Assembly: GCA_026874595.1 (NCBI GenBank)
Contig: CM049313.1
Coordinates: 56,995,159 to 57,059,158 of the forward strand
DNA length: 64,000 bases
Source: Sipunculus nudus
Lineage: Eukaryota; Annelida; Sipuncula; Golfingiida; Sipunculidae
Direction of reading: 5' to 3'
Of the stretch, positions 2,966 to 45,417 are shown piece by piece. The notes beneath the pieces were generated by a model, which was not told where the DNA came from, did no database searches, and worked only from the letters and a program-made list of their open reading frames with translations. A program made the translations under genes and the position numbers. Numbering within the stretch: position 1 is the first letter of the stretch; each line of letters opens with the position of its first letter.

Positions 2966-3057
2966 GAGATCTAGAAGGAAGAGCTCTCCCACCTGTCCCC
3001 AGAGACAAGATTCTTATTCGACGGGACAGGTTGAGGAAAGGAAAAGAATTAGGAAAG
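2966..3057 (+). CDS. Tyrosine kinase, linker and glycine-loop start exon (partial gene)
   Basis: This exon of 92 bases encodes about 30 residues: an acidic start, a proline motif (LPPVP), a basic stretch (LIRRDRLRKGKEL) and the first residues of the ATP-binding glycine loop (LGK). It is preceded by a pyrimidine-rich acceptor (cccttgtttttacag) and followed by a consensus donor (gtaagt at 3058). It enters in phase 1 and leaves in phase 0, which joins in frame to the exon at 12108 and gives LGKGFYGHV. A Pro-rich linker ahead of the catalytic domain is known in Syk/ZAP-70-type and other cytoplasmic kinases. The upstream exons (SH2, ankyrin or other) are not in the window, so the N-terminal domains are unknown. 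An ATG at 2938 opens the same frame but lies in the repeat upstream of the acceptor; I do not take it as the start. Confidence 0.8.
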
Positions 3058-12107: not shown

Positions 12108-12266
12108 GGCTTTTATGGACACGTCTATCTGGGCATCCTGGAAGATGGCTTAACTCAGAGGAAAGTCGCCATCAAGAGTCTGAAGAAAGACTTTGCTGAA
12201 CAGTGCGATGAGCTGAAGGCCGAGATGGCCATCATGACCAAACTGAAGCATGACAACATTGTCCAG
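12108..12266 (+). CDS. Tyrosine kinase N-lobe exon
   Basis: This exon of 159 bases encodes exactly 53 residues, with phase 0 at both ends. It opens with the rest of the glycine loop (GFYGHVYLG), then the VAIK motif (VAIKSLK; the Lys binds ATP phosphates), then helix C (CDELKAEMAIM, with Glu in the expected place for the Lys-Glu salt bridge) and ends at HDNIVQ before the beta-4 strand. The acceptor is tttgactgtag and the donor gtatga at 12267. Order, spacing and motifs agree with the N-lobe of cytoplasmic tyrosine kinases; helix C resembles the DELxAE pattern of Syk/ZAP-70. A longer frame that overlaps it (11936-12199) is a shadow in the wrong phase. Confidence 0.92.
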
Positions 12267-34189: not shown

Positions 34190-36369
34190 CAAACAGTTGT
34201 ACAGACTTTTTTGGCAATGCCTGCAGATATTGGCCTGATTTTTGGTGTGTGGGCAGATAATGACCAGTTACAGATCGAGTTCGCGTTTCCTCCCGGTTGA
34301 CCTTTTTTTGACCGTTTTACGGCTCCTAAACTTAGAAAATTTCATGAAAAATAGAAATTTTCATGACAAATACACATGTACAGACTTTTTTTCGCAATGC
34401 CTGCAGATATTGGCCTGATTTTTGGTGTGTGGGCAGATAATGACCAGTTACAGATCTAGTTCGCGTTTCATCCCGGTTGACCTACTTTTGACCTTTTTAC
34501 GGCTCCTAAACTTAGAAAATTTCATGAAAAATAGAAATTTTCATGACAAATACACATGTACGCACTTTTTTTAGCAATGCCTGCAGATATTGGCCTGATT
34601 TTTGGTGTGTGGGCAGATAATGACCAGTTACAGATCGAGTTCGCGTTTCCTCCCAGTTGACCTACTTTGACTGTTTTACGGCTCCTAAACTTAGAAAATT
34701 TCATGAAAAATAGAAATTTTCATGACAAATACACATGTACGCACTTTTTTTCGCAATGCCTGCAGATATTGGCCTGATTTTTGGTTTGTGGGCAGATAAT
34801 GACCAGTTACAGATCGAGTTCGCGTTTCGTCCCAGTTGACCTACTTTTGACTGTTTTACGGCTCCTAAACTTAGAAAATTTCATGAAAAATAGAAATTTT
34901 CATGACTTATACACATGTACGGACTTTTTTTCGCAGTGCCTGCAGATATTGGCCTGATTTTTGTTGTGTGGGCAGATAATGACCAGTTACAGATCGAGTT
35001 CGCGTTTCACCCCGGTTGACCTACTTTTGACCTTTTTACGGCTCCTAAACTTAGAAAATTTCATGAAAAATAGAAATTTTCATGACAAATACACATGTAC
35101 GGACTTTTTTTGCAATGCCTGCAGATATTGGCCTGATTTTTGGTGTGTGTGCAGATAATGACCAGTTACAGATATAGTTCGCGTTTCATCCCAGTTGACC
35201 TACTTTTGACCGTTTTACGGCTCCTGAACATAGAAAATTTCATGAAAAATCGAAATTTTCATGACAAATACACATGTACAGACTTTTTTTCGCAATGCCT
35301 GCAGATATTGGCCTGATTTTTGGTGTGTGGGCAGATAATGACCAGTTACAGATTGAGTTCGCGTTTCGTCCCAGTTGACCTACTTTTGACTTTTTTACTG
35401 CTCCTAAACTTAGAAAATTTCATGAAAAATAGAAATTTTCATGACAAATACACATGTACGCACTTTTTTTCGCAATGCCTGCAGATATTGGCCTGATTTT
35501 TGGTGTGTGGGCAGATAATGACCAGTTACAGATTGAGTTCGCGTTTCGTCCCAGTTGACCTACTTTTGACTTTTTTACTGCTCCTAAACTTAGAAAATTT
35601 CATGAAAAATAGAAATTTTCATGACAAATACACATGTACGCACTTTTTTTCGCAATGCCTGCAGATATTGGCCTGATTTTTGGTGTGTGGGCAGATAATG
35701 ACCAGTTACAGATTGAGTTCGCGTTTCGTCCCAGTTGACCTACTTTTGACTGTTTTACGGCTCCTAAACTTAGAAAATTTCATGAAAAATAGAAATTTTC
35801 ATGACAAATACACATGTACGGACTTTTTTTCGCAGTGCCTGCAGATATTGGCCTGATTTTTGGTGTGTGTGCAGATAATGACCAGTTACAGATCAAGTTC
35901 GTTTTTCGTCCCGGTTGACCTACTTTTGACCGTTTTACGGCTCTTAAACTTAGAAAAATTCATGAAAAATAGAAATTTTCATGACAAATACACATGTACG
36001 GACATTTTTTCGCAATGCCTGCAGATATTGGCCTTATTTTTGGTGTGTGGGCAGATGATGACCAGTTACAGATGAAGTTCCCGTTTTGTCCCGGTTGACC
36101 TACTTTTGACTGTTTTACGGCTCCTAAACTTAGAAAATTTCATGAAAAATAGAAATTTTCATGACAAATACTCATGTACGGACTTTTTTACGCAATGCCT
36201 GCAGATATTGGCCTGATTTTTGGTGTGTGGGCAGATAATGACCAGTTACAGATTGAGTTTGTGTTTCGTCCCGGTTGACCTGCTTTTGACCGTTTTACGG
36301 CTCCTAAACTTAGAAAAATTCATGAAAAATAGAAATTTTCATGACAAATACACATGTACAGCCGTTTTT
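34190..36369 (+). repeat. Tandem array, 12 units of 179-180 bp
   Basis: The landmark 'gcaatgcctgcagatattgg' recurs at about 34214, 34394, 34574, 34753, 34933, 35112, 35292, 35472, 35652, 35832, 36012 and 36192. Two neighbouring units (about 35291-35470 and 35471-35650) look identical, which suggests recent unequal exchange. Each unit has an inverted motif GAAAATTTC..GAAATTTTC. Confidence 0.92.
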
Positions 36370-41387: not shown

Positions 41388-41710
41388 GTTGTTGGTGAGT
41401 GTCCAGGTGATGGAGAAAACCCAATGTACATTGTCATGGAGTTTGTGGGAAAAGGAAGTATGAAAGACCTGTTGCTGCGTGAACAGGACACCATCAGTCC
41501 AGACACCCTGCTGTCATTCTCATTGGACATCGCCTGCGGGATGGCCTACTTGTCAGGAGAAGGCATCATACATAATGATCTTGCTGCTCGGAACGTGCTC
41601 ATATCTGATGACTACAGGGCCAAAATTGGAGACTTTGGTCTGTCCAAAGTCTTGGATCCATGTAAAGACTACTACAGAAGAACACCTGATAAACCCATGC
41701 CTGCATTCTG
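41388..41710 (+). CDS. Tyrosine kinase core catalytic exon (hinge to activation segment)
   Basis: The exon has 323 bases, enters in phase 0 and leaves in phase 2. In order it encodes beta-4/5 and the hinge (YIVMEFVGKGSM), helix D/E (DIACGMAYLSG), the catalytic loop HNDLAARN, the metal-binding DFGLSKV, a paired tyrosine site in the activation loop (DYYRR) and the start of the P+1 loop (MPAFW, the Trp codon being split). The proton-acceptor Asp, the Asn and the DFG Asp are present. The Arg of HRD is replaced by Asn, which is rare. DFGLSK followed by a YY pair is typical of Syk/ZAP-70. The acceptor is tattaaag; the donor is gtatgt at 41711. It would splice to either last exon. Confidence 0.95.
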
Positions 41711-44442
41711 GTATGTTGCAAAGATTGGTTTTCCTTCTCTCTGTTCAAATCGAGTGACCTAAGATTTTTGTCTGATTTGCCTGAAATTATATGATTTAGT
41801 TGGTTACAGTTTTGAAGTAAATATGTTTAATCTCTTGAATGGCCATATGATGATATCACCATTCAACAAGAGTGTCTCAATTTTCACATAGTTTATTACT
41901 AAAAGATAACATTGAATGCTTAGGCTATCAGAGTGGGACATGTTCAGTTAACATGTTTGATATGCACCTAAACATAGTGGCATGACTTTTGACCTCATGG
42001 ACAACAATTCCTACCTTTGCATTTTGATATGTGTAGAAAGGATATCACCTCCACACCACAAAGTAGATCACTGTGAACCAGTTAATTGTCATACAAAACT
42101 TTAAAAAGAGCTCATTGATACTTAAGTTGCCGTTTAACAATGCTTCATTCAAATGTTGCACTTAATGACAAAGCCTTGTTTAAATTGTAATCAAATATTA
42201 ACCTCTGAATCAATTGGAATCATTATTTTTATTTTGCATGTGTCACCCAAATGCCCTCTATGTTTTATTCAAGTTTAACTTGGCATACCATGATGTTTCA
42301 ACAATATTTAAAATTCCTTCTTCACATCCAACAAAGAGTAAAATATAAGTGCACACAGCCACTTGGATGAAATGATATTTCCTATAAATTACATCAGTGT
42401 CCGACTCAAATATTTTTAAATAGCCTGATATCAAGCATATGCTGTAGAAGTCTGACCAGTCAGTTTGGGCTTTTAGCCAACTTTCCTTGTTTAAACAGGA
42501 TTGTCAGAACCGAATATATGATGTTATGCTTTAAGGTCTTGTTATTGTTTTTGAATTTTCTTGAAAAGTCCTTGAAATGAAATTTTTATCCTCTGTAAGT
42601 GTAAAGACACTAATGTGTATACTCTTACTGTGCTTTTAGGTTTTGTGGATATTATCGATCATCCCCATAATCATCATCACCATCATTAGACATCAGCACC
42701 ATTCATTTCCTATGTCTGGATAACATAGGCATGCATGTTCAGTCATTTTCCTTTTCATTCACTCTATGAACTTATGCAGTTTCTCAGTGCCCACCATCAA
42801 CCTTCCATTATCTTGACCACCGTCTGTTACCAAATTTCTCAACAACTGCTCCAACTGTCATCATGAAACTTTGTAGTCCTTTAAATCATGTGATGAATAT
42901 ACAACACTAAGCTTTTTGCATTGACCTATTTTCTGCAGACTGAAATGGTCTTTTATGCTTTTTCAAAGATAAGTCAAAAGGTATTTATATTTTACTTTTC
43001 ATGTCATGGTCAAAAATTTCTAAGAGAAAGGGGAATAAAATAGGTATGAATCCAGTCAAATTTTTTTTCAAGATTGTGTCTTTATCAGTTTATGGAACTT
43101 CAGATTTTGTTTATCACAAAATTTGACAATTGGATTTGTTTGCATGCGTGATGTATTATCTGTTACCAAATAACTAAAAAATGGCTGCATCCTTCAGCAC
43201 AAGATTTCACACAAAAATTGATCATATATCTGTTATGTGATTTTGAGATGCAGATGGCACCCCATATGTAAACCTGTTTCCTGTTGGATGAAATTGTCTT
43301 TTCTGCTTTTTACAAGATAAATTTAATTAGTATCTCTGCTTTCTTATCATGATAAATAATTCTGTAGAGCAAATTAAGTTGGATGCAGTGTAAAAATTGA
43401 ATTCAATCATTTTCAAAATTCTGTCTTTTTGGAAATATAATTTTTATTATAATTTTTGATAAGTTCAATAATATAATTTTCATGGAATATATCAGGAATT
43501 GCTGCAACTATTGTTTATGTGACTGGAAAGCAGATTAAACCATAGATGAAGCCACCTATGTGGGGCTACTGCTTGAATGGTATTTTCACTTTCACTGTTT
43601 TATTTCTTGATCACCAATTATCACGCACAGTAGCACCCAGAGTGAACATTAAGACCTCCAGGTCTCTTGTTTGGCCTGCATGAAAGTCAGTAGCTGGTCA
43701 GATTCTTTTCAGTTAGCCATTTATTTTGGTAAATATTTGTATTTACCTCAATCAGGATTTACCATAAACACAACCATGGGTCCTGTATTCAACTCATCAG
43801 TACTTTTCCCATTACAGAAAAAAAACTGATATGGCAGTTAAGCTGTTAAAGTTGCTTTGACTATTTGAAACACAATTCTAATTATCTGATCTATTGATAT
43901 CTAATGGTAAACGTTGAGCTACACAATACGTGGACATCCAAGTGAAATTCAAAGAAATTTCAAATGTGCATCATTTGAGCACCATGCTGAGAACTCCTTA
44001 GTTTGAACATCACTTGCACACATTTTTTGCATGTGCATGTTCCTGTTACACTCCTTACTCAGCTGTTATACACTACCATCACTCAAAATCTTCTTTGAAT
44101 TGACTGTCGCTTTGTATAGCAATTTATTCAGGGTCTCAACCAGGACTGGCTTATTGCCAAGTATCAGACCAACAAGAGCAGTGTGTCATGGGTTTAAATT
44201 TTGGAGTTGGATGCACAGTGCAATACCACGCTCTCATTGGTCTGAATAAAATTCTGTGTCCTGTGCCAGCCCTGGTGGTGAAATCCGGAGAATCTTGCTA
44301 TATAATGCAGCAGTTAAAGCGAAGGAGATATAGAATGACTGCAGTGTATAATCACTGCAAGAGAAGTGTAGTTCCTGGTTGTTTTATATTAGTATTTACC
44401 ATTTTGTGACCAGCCCCTTACATGTCTGTCTTATTATTTAAG
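41711..44442. other. Intron before the alternative last exons
   Basis: AT-rich, with no ORF of note. About 42760-43560 has worn family C traits ('ctatgaacttatgcag', 'gacctattttctgcag'). About 44100-44400 shares phrases ('aataccacgctctcattggt', 'ccaagtat..gacca') with 39690-39860, hinting at an undefined small repeat. No strong element ends were found. Confidence 0.4.
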
Positions 44443-44743
44443 GTATTCACCTGAAGCTCTCTGCTATTATCATTTCTCTGAGAAGAGCGATGTGTGGAGC
44501 TATGGCATTGTGTTGTGGGAGATTTACTCTAGAGGAAAAGCTCCTTATTTGTGTGATGAACACAGAAACCTTGTAAGCCTTCTACAAGCTGGGGAGAGAC
44601 TCCCCACACATAACTATATCCTGCCTGATTGCCCAAATTACATACGCCAGTTGATGTACCAGTGCTGGGAATTCAGAATCAAGGATCGACCTACTTTTGC
44701 TATGATCAAGGATCTGTTTAGAGACCCATCTTTGTTCTGTTAA
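44443..44743 (+). CDS. Tyrosine kinase alternative last exon A
   Basis: The first base completes the split Trp codon of exon 3 (tg+g). The next 99 codons encode the end of the activation segment (YSPEA, an SPE form of the APE motif), helix F (SDVWSYGIVLWEI), helix G, helix H (CPNYIRQLMYQCWE) and the RPTF motif before helix I, then stop at 44741. The acceptor is ttatttaag. It is about 64 percent identical by eye (59 of 92 residues) to exon B. In the identical 21-residue helix F block there are eight synonymous and no replacement differences, which points to selection on both copies. It ends in a short tail (RDPSLFC). I see no AATAAA or ATTAAA before exon B. Confidence 0.88.
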
Positions 44744-45083
44744 TTAACATTGCTTCATTCACATCATCATCATCATGCAGGCATGTTTTATGGTGCTGTT
44801 TTGTGAATTAGAAGATGCTCACACAAGAATATATTAATGTCTGATCTGTCATCTCTTACAGCTTGATGAAAGTCAAATTGAAGCACACTAAATTCTGGAT
44901 CATATGCTTTCTCTTGGACCAGTTATGTAGTGTGTGAGCTGGGACAAGTTGTCAAATACTCAGTCAAGACTTAAAATAAGGTCATGATGCCAAGATGGTT
45001 GTGATACAGGGGTGGTAGTGAGAGCGGTTCCACTGTCTTGTACTTCCCAATCTGTTGATGTTATTTTATATCTTATCATTTAG

Positions 45084-45417
45084 GTATGCACCGGAGGCTA
45101 TCTGCTATTACCGTCTGTCAGAGAAAAGTGATGTCTGGAGCTATGGGATTGTGTTATGGGAAATTTACTCGAGAGGAAAATCACCGCACTTATGTGATGA
45201 CCACAAATACTTTATCTCACGGCTTCACAAAGGTGAAAGACTGCCGATCAATGCTAATATCCTGCCTGATTGCCCAACTTATATGCAACAGATGATGAGG
45301 AGATGCTGGGAGGCCCACCGCAAAGAGCGACCCACATTCGCTCAGATTGAGGCCGATATTAGACAGGAAGTAAAAAAATACAATGAAAAAAAATGGGATG
45401 GAACAAATAAACATTGA
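45084..45417 (+). CDS. Tyrosine kinase alternative last exon B
   Basis: It has the same phase and start as exon A: the first base completes the split Trp codon. The 110 codons encode YAPEA (canonical APE), helix F (SDVWSYGIVLWEI), helix G, helix H (CPTYMQQMMRRCWE), RPTF and helix I, then a Lys-rich tail (about 15 residues, EVKKYNEKKW..) and TGA at 45415. The acceptor is ttatcatttag. Differences from exon A cluster in helix G and between helices G and I, surfaces known in kinases to bind substrates and regulators. The exon can replace exon A only by skipping it, because A carries its own stop. Confidence 0.92.
45406..45411 (+). terminator. AATAAA overlapping the last codons of exon B
   Basis: AATAAA lies inside the coding sequence, four bases before the stop codon. 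If used, the 3' UTR would be only a few bases to about 25 bases long. No other AATAAA was seen by eye in the next several hundred bases. Confidence 0.35.

Follow-up and report, generated by a model that had tools for sequence, protein, structure and literature searches.

We propose that a single JAK gene of Sipunculus nudus likely carries two mutually exclusive terminal exons, A and B, which would both be spliced, which would derive from an old tandem duplication, and which would endow the encoded kinases with different docking properties. The window, i.e. the whole stretch of DNA that was analysed, comprises 64,000 nucleotides of contig CM049313.1. It contains the following features, given in window coordinates:

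2966..3057, + strand: exon 1 in the window, coding for the JH2-JH1 linker and the start of the glycine loop (...LPPVPRDKILIRRDRLRKGKELGK), with borders ACAG/GA... and AAAG/GTAAGT and a phase 1 start.
12108..12266, + strand: exon 2, JH1 N-lobe (GFYGHVYLG...VAIK...NIVQ), placed by a kinase profile match of 29 bits, its sequence and its splice sites.
41388..41710, + strand: exon 3, common to both isoforms, with the hinge, the catalytic loop (HND), DFG and a JAK-type activation loop (DYY...FW).
44443..44743, + strand: exon A, first alternative last exon, JH1 C-lobe with helices F to I, tail FRDPSLFC and stop TAA.
44744..45083, + strand: spacer between A and B, containing the B acceptor and no AATAAA or ATTAAA, with the weak variants AATATA (44828) and ACTAAA (44887).
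45084..45417, + strand: exon B, second alternative last exon, JH1 C-lobe with a 19-residue tail and stop TGA; an AATAAA (45406-45411) lies within its last codons.

Exon 3 ends at a donor whose GT occupies positions 41711-41712 (CTG/GTATGT), so that the donor position of 41711 given in an earlier note on this DNA is retained, while the final base of the exon is corrected to 41710. Acceptors precede both A (TTATTTAAG/GTATTC at 44443) and B (TCATTTAG/GTATGC at 45084). The last two bases of exon 3 form a split Trp codon with the first base of either A or B, as had been claimed before and as the AG acceptors and the shared phase bear out. Exon 3+A and exon 3+B each constitute a single open frame up to their own stop, TAA in A and TGA in B, again as reported; the APE-type motif said to be present in both is APE in B, but SPE in A. 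The Pfam profile PK_Tyr_Ser-Thr scores 200.4 bits for exon 3+A and 200.5 bits for exon 3+B, and 89.6 and 89.3 bits for A and B alone, respectively. Splicing of A onto B via the GTAAG at 44573 inside A was considered and rejected, as its phase is wrong for in-frame entry into B. Because this one donor-like site seen inside A enters B out of frame and each exon has a stop, A and B are mutually exclusive, and the statement that one transcript codes with either A or B only holds. The 29-kb intron between exons 2 and 3 contains nine ORFs of at least 100 residues in six frames, and an open frame alone is therefore no proof of an exon; homology and constraint are. The same intron harbours a tandem array at 34198-36359 (12 copies of a 180-base unit, 94% matches), and fragments that translate similarly to this unit are also present upstream of the window. 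The Arg of the HRD motif in kinase catalytic loops usually touches the phosphorylated activation loop; in exon 3, and hence in both isoforms, the motif is HND (41571-41579, IIHNDLAARN), with Asn at this position.

To what extent have the two exons been kept by selection? A and B align without gaps over 92 codons, a range that leaves out the poorly aligning ends, i.e. the last eight codons in A and the longer tail in B. Identity amounts to 60 of 92 residues and 193 of 276 bases, in keeping with the figure of about 64 percent given previously, and the 21-codon block SEKSDVWSYGIVLWEIYSRGK likewise has the eight silent and zero replacement differences described for it. Silent differences are present in 26 of the 92 codons and replacements in 32, and differences at codon positions 1, 2 and 3 number 22, 17 and 44 (p = 6e-4). 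Estimates of dN and dS over this range are 0.243 and 1.745 (NG86), 0.252 and 1.632 (YN00) and 0.228 and 1.358 (ML), corresponding to a dN/dS ratio of 0.14-0.17 (dN 0.23-0.25, dS 1.36-1.75) that is imprecise because dS is near saturation. The NG86 bootstrap interval (2.5-97.5%) is 0.06-0.31, from the 409 of 500 resamples that yielded a value; the remaining 91 gave no usable ratio and were dropped. Across four ranges, LWL85 returned no value on any and YN00 none on three. By NG86, dN and dS are 0.135 and 1.708 for codons 2-46 and 0.379 and 1.781 for codons 47-92, and the second half of the exon is therefore less constrained.

Had one copy been free since the duplication, a dN/dS of at least 0.5 would be expected. 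In neutral simulations, which modelled substitutions only and left one copy free while the other was fixed, four rates were run 500 times each and no run had 32 or fewer replaced codons; the minimum was 34, at the lowest rate of 0.3 substitutions per site, and the open frame was kept in 0.4-1.6% of runs. With dS near saturation and dN far lower, free drift of either copy since the duplication is unlikely. The ratio below 0.5, the simulations and the equal Pfam scores all agree with the earlier suggestion that both copies are maintained, and indicate long-term purifying selection on both A and B. We thus regard it as quite improbable that exon A is a relic, formerly used but now rarely or never spliced, with B as the sole working C-lobe. 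The shorter, Pro-containing C-terminal tail of A and the lack of AATAAA or ATTAAA past A and ahead of B would fit such a history, but A has an open frame, an AG acceptor with a pyrimidine-rich tract and an equal Pfam score, and given the constraint on both copies any decay would necessarily be recent.

The replacements are concentrated in the second part of the exon, with 4 of 33 residues replaced from the Trp through helix F compared to 28 of 59 after helix F (Fisher p = 6e-4). By rough helix the counts are 0/15 for F, 7/11 for G and 9/16 for H, with limits taken from a low-confidence structure (mean pLDDT 47.7) predicted for exon B with A alone as partner. Given such a model, and with hydrophobic replacements (I/L, L/F, F/L, M/I and M/L) among the differences, the proposal that the choice of exon alters the C-lobe surface only is not borne out. 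On JAK1, the SOCS1 contacts are mainly made by the activation loop and by helix G with its GQM motif, according to PMC5908791. Because these two elements form most of the SOCS1 face, the likeliest consequence of the exchange, by analogy with JAK1, would be that the A and B isoforms differ in docking of SOCS proteins or substrates; a role for SOCS is conjecture, since the vertebrate GQM epitope is in neither exon. Alternatively, A could specify a JAK with a regulatory role, low activity or a dominant-negative effect instead of a second active enzyme. The precedent is human JAK3-B, which according to PMC10167241 has an alternative C-terminus without subdomain XI, lacks kinase activity and dampens downstream responses. 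We consider this unlikely for A, which retains PE, DVW and the CW...RP block and covers almost all of the Pfam C-lobe (profile positions 170-256 of 258), so that the JAK3-B lesion is absent from it.

As to how one exon is chosen over the other, no AATAAA or ATTAAA is present in the scanned interval 44700-45090, and B carries an AATAAA within its final codons. This weakly favours competition between the two 3' splice sites, which probably governs the choice. If the hexamer at 45406-45411 is used, the usual spacing between AATAAA and cleavage would leave B with a 3' UTR of only some 4-24 bases. It is also plausible, though not the course we favour, that A has its own poly(A) site and is a true alternative last exon, in which case the choice would be made by cleavage and polyadenylation and not by competing acceptors. 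The weak signals AATATA at 44828 and ACTAAA at 44887, the latter followed by GTAGTGTGTGAG, could serve such a site. The lack of canonical hexamers from 44700-45090 argues against it, but canonical hexamers have a background of 2.0 per kb, so that a stretch of 340 bases lacking them is unsurprising and hence weak evidence.

Judged from its predicted domains, the gene with A and B is a JAK and not the Syk-like kinase that the earlier note had suggested. Members of the Syk family combine tandem SH2 domains with one kinase domain; here, a FERM match and a pseudokinase are located upstream instead, and Syk family membership was rejected on these grounds. The FERM_F2 match (33 bits, cut-off 26) lies within the 40 kb upstream of the window, on the same strand (C8:56957143-56957469), and a PDB search with this FERM segment at E up to 1 retrieved three sequences, all of them JAK2 (E about 9e-5). 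A second kinase domain upstream, also on the same strand, has HGN in place of HRD and DPG in place of DFG, and when its exon pieces were joined into one query the best PDB matches were TYK2 and JAK1 chains, followed by the JAK2 pseudokinase. The last pseudokinase exon ends with AACG/GTAATA (L009:449) in phase 1, and exon 1 begins with GA/GAT after the ACAG at 2965, which restores the frame from the pseudokinase exon, a match expected by chance for one phase in three. JH1 itself has tandem activation-loop tyrosines and, with B, a JAK-like FWYAPE (KDYYRRTPDKPMPAFWYAPE aligned to JAK1), the corresponding motif with A being FWYSPE. A candidate segment near -29210..-28917 for the SH2-like domain that JAKs carry between FERM and JH2 has no Pfam match, no significant PDB match and no match to PF00017. 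PF00017 is matched nowhere in the window or in the preceding 40 kb, a weak negative given that a JAK SH2 would escape this search too. The helix G insertion with GQM of vertebrate JAK1, JAK2 and TYK2 is absent, and GQM is in neither exon; since vertebrate JAK3 is likewise without GQM (PMC5908791), the motif is not JAK-defining. Both exons have a common four-residue insert ahead of LPDCP relative to aligned kinases.

The kinase domain taken alone is ambiguous, and it is the predicted surroundings that decide gene identity. With the whole kinase domain as query against the PDB, the highest ranks go to a two-domain EGFR chain, JAK1 and TYK2, closely followed by a Src-Abl ancestor, CSK, FGFR and ABL; the top 60 of 2669 include JAK1 and TYK2 but not SYK. 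Exon A alone is led by EGFR, Eph receptors and SYK, with no JAK among the top 60 of 946 PDB sequences. Exon 3+B scores 132-133 bits with SYK vs. 133-134 bits with isolated JAK1 kinase domains. Eleven NCBIfam families were all under their cut-offs. Such near-equality of SYK and isolated JAK1 domains on exon 3+B, the ranking obtained with exon A alone, and the roughly 22.5 kb between the last pseudokinase exon and exon 1 could point to the JH1 exons being a separate Syk-like gene, apart from the upstream FERM-pseudokinase gene. The common strand, the JAK domain order, the matching phase 1 junction and the whole-domain search, with JAK1 and TYK2 but not SYK among the best matches, make this very improbable, and we retain one JAK gene as the identity of the locus.

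DNA similarity between A and B starts about 14 bases ahead of the exons, and their flanks have no significant similarity on either side (best E 0.29), which marks the duplication as old. A search of the window plus the preceding 40 kb for a third copy of the exon found none, its weak extra matches with E < 0.01 being pseudokinase exons. In the whole 1.43-Gb genome, exon B matches at the DNA level only itself and A (75% over 228 bases), and no relatives of exon A were found in viral contigs. In a protein search (68 matches; 150 of 180 candidates scored), the next best by score is 38% identical over 161 residues and located on C4. Four related kinases, receptor-like by reading and with their kinase domains in single open frames, lie at C4:58.2-58.6 Mb (L001, L002, L004 and L005). 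HKD replaces HRD in L002, L004 and L005, and DFD or NFD replaces DFG in L004 and L005; going by these motifs, some of the four may be pseudokinases.

FERM_F2 has one match in the 1.43-Gb genome, so this is the only JAK found here, with the caveat that absence from a search is no proof of absence; fly and sea squirt have one JAK each, as stated in PMC3296744. PF02864 (STAT_bind) gives two matches 0.6 kb apart (C12:15276158-15277050), which we read as one STAT locus. SOCS-box matches number 61, at least two of which each share an open frame with an SH2 match (C3:1300542-1300946 and C11:28261583-28262014). The sequence of events that we favour is as follows. An ancient tandem duplication would have copied the JH1 C-lobe exon along with its 3' splice site and its stop, and each transcript would join exon 3, with the catalytic and activation loops, to either A or B. 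Both exons would be spliced in RNA, with the choice made mainly by competition of the two 3' splice sites, and the A form would perhaps read through to the poly(A) site of B, with the spacer and B serving as its 3' UTR. Two full-length JAKs would result that share the receptor-binding part, the pseudokinase, the ATP site and the activation loop and are distinguished by helices G, H and I and by the tail. Substrates or SOCS inhibitors would dock differently at the helix G face, which would make the two forms an analogue of two JAK paralogues. In vertebrates, JAK signalling has diversified through gene duplication. Tentatively, and with somewhat more doubt than confidence, we suggest that in an animal that has just one JAK and one STAT, splicing might provide the equivalent of two paralogues, with both C-lobes active, differing in SOCS sensitivity or substrate preference, and chosen according to tissue or immune state. 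A genome in which one JAK locus and one STAT locus are detected, and in which the JAK has two maintained, exchangeable C-lobes, would be a natural swap experiment, with one core and two docking faces, and would allow a direct test of what share of JAK specificity and feedback inhibition resides in helices G to I.

How does this arrangement compare to known systems? The JNK1 exons 6a and 6b represent a short segment of a Ser/Thr kinase. These exons (7 and 8 in zebrafish) resemble A and B in that they code for part of the kinase C-lobe, where effects on substrate specificity have been suggested in PMC7259801; they are internal exons, whereas here the last exon, with the whole C-lobe past the activation loop, is exchanged. 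Closer in gene family are the alternative C-termini of human JAK3-S, -M and -B (Lai 1995), in which splicing also changes the C-terminal end of a JAK kinase domain. They arise through use or non-use of a 5' splice site and are not described as homologous duplicated exons in PMC10167241; JAK3-B is inactive and has lost subdomain XI, a block that both A and B retain. A 45-kDa JAK2 without the pseudokinase domain (PMC10850816) differs from the A/B arrangement. FYN is likewise a tyrosine kinase with tandem duplicated, mutually exclusive exons in part of its catalytic domain, but FynB and FynT differ in the SH2-kinase linker and the kinase start including the ATP site, i.e. at the opposite end from the C-lobe and terminus exchanged here (PMC9741552). 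The same source counts 77 C-terminal cases among 236 human tandem duplicated exon substitutions, with many swapped terminal regions being signal or transmembrane segments, coiled coils or disordered tails; these are homologous alternative C-termini as well, but here half a catalytic domain is involved. A and B show the sequence features of such substitutions, being adjacent, homologous, of the same phase and, by sequence, mutually exclusive. Among the open-access literature matches listed, none describes a JAK or other kinase with a complete C-lobe as two maintained last exons. The principle is thus known from the JAK3 C-termini, JNK1 6a/6b, FYN and the human C-terminal duplicated exons, and what appears new, among those matches, is the presence of two homologous complete C-lobes in one JAK.
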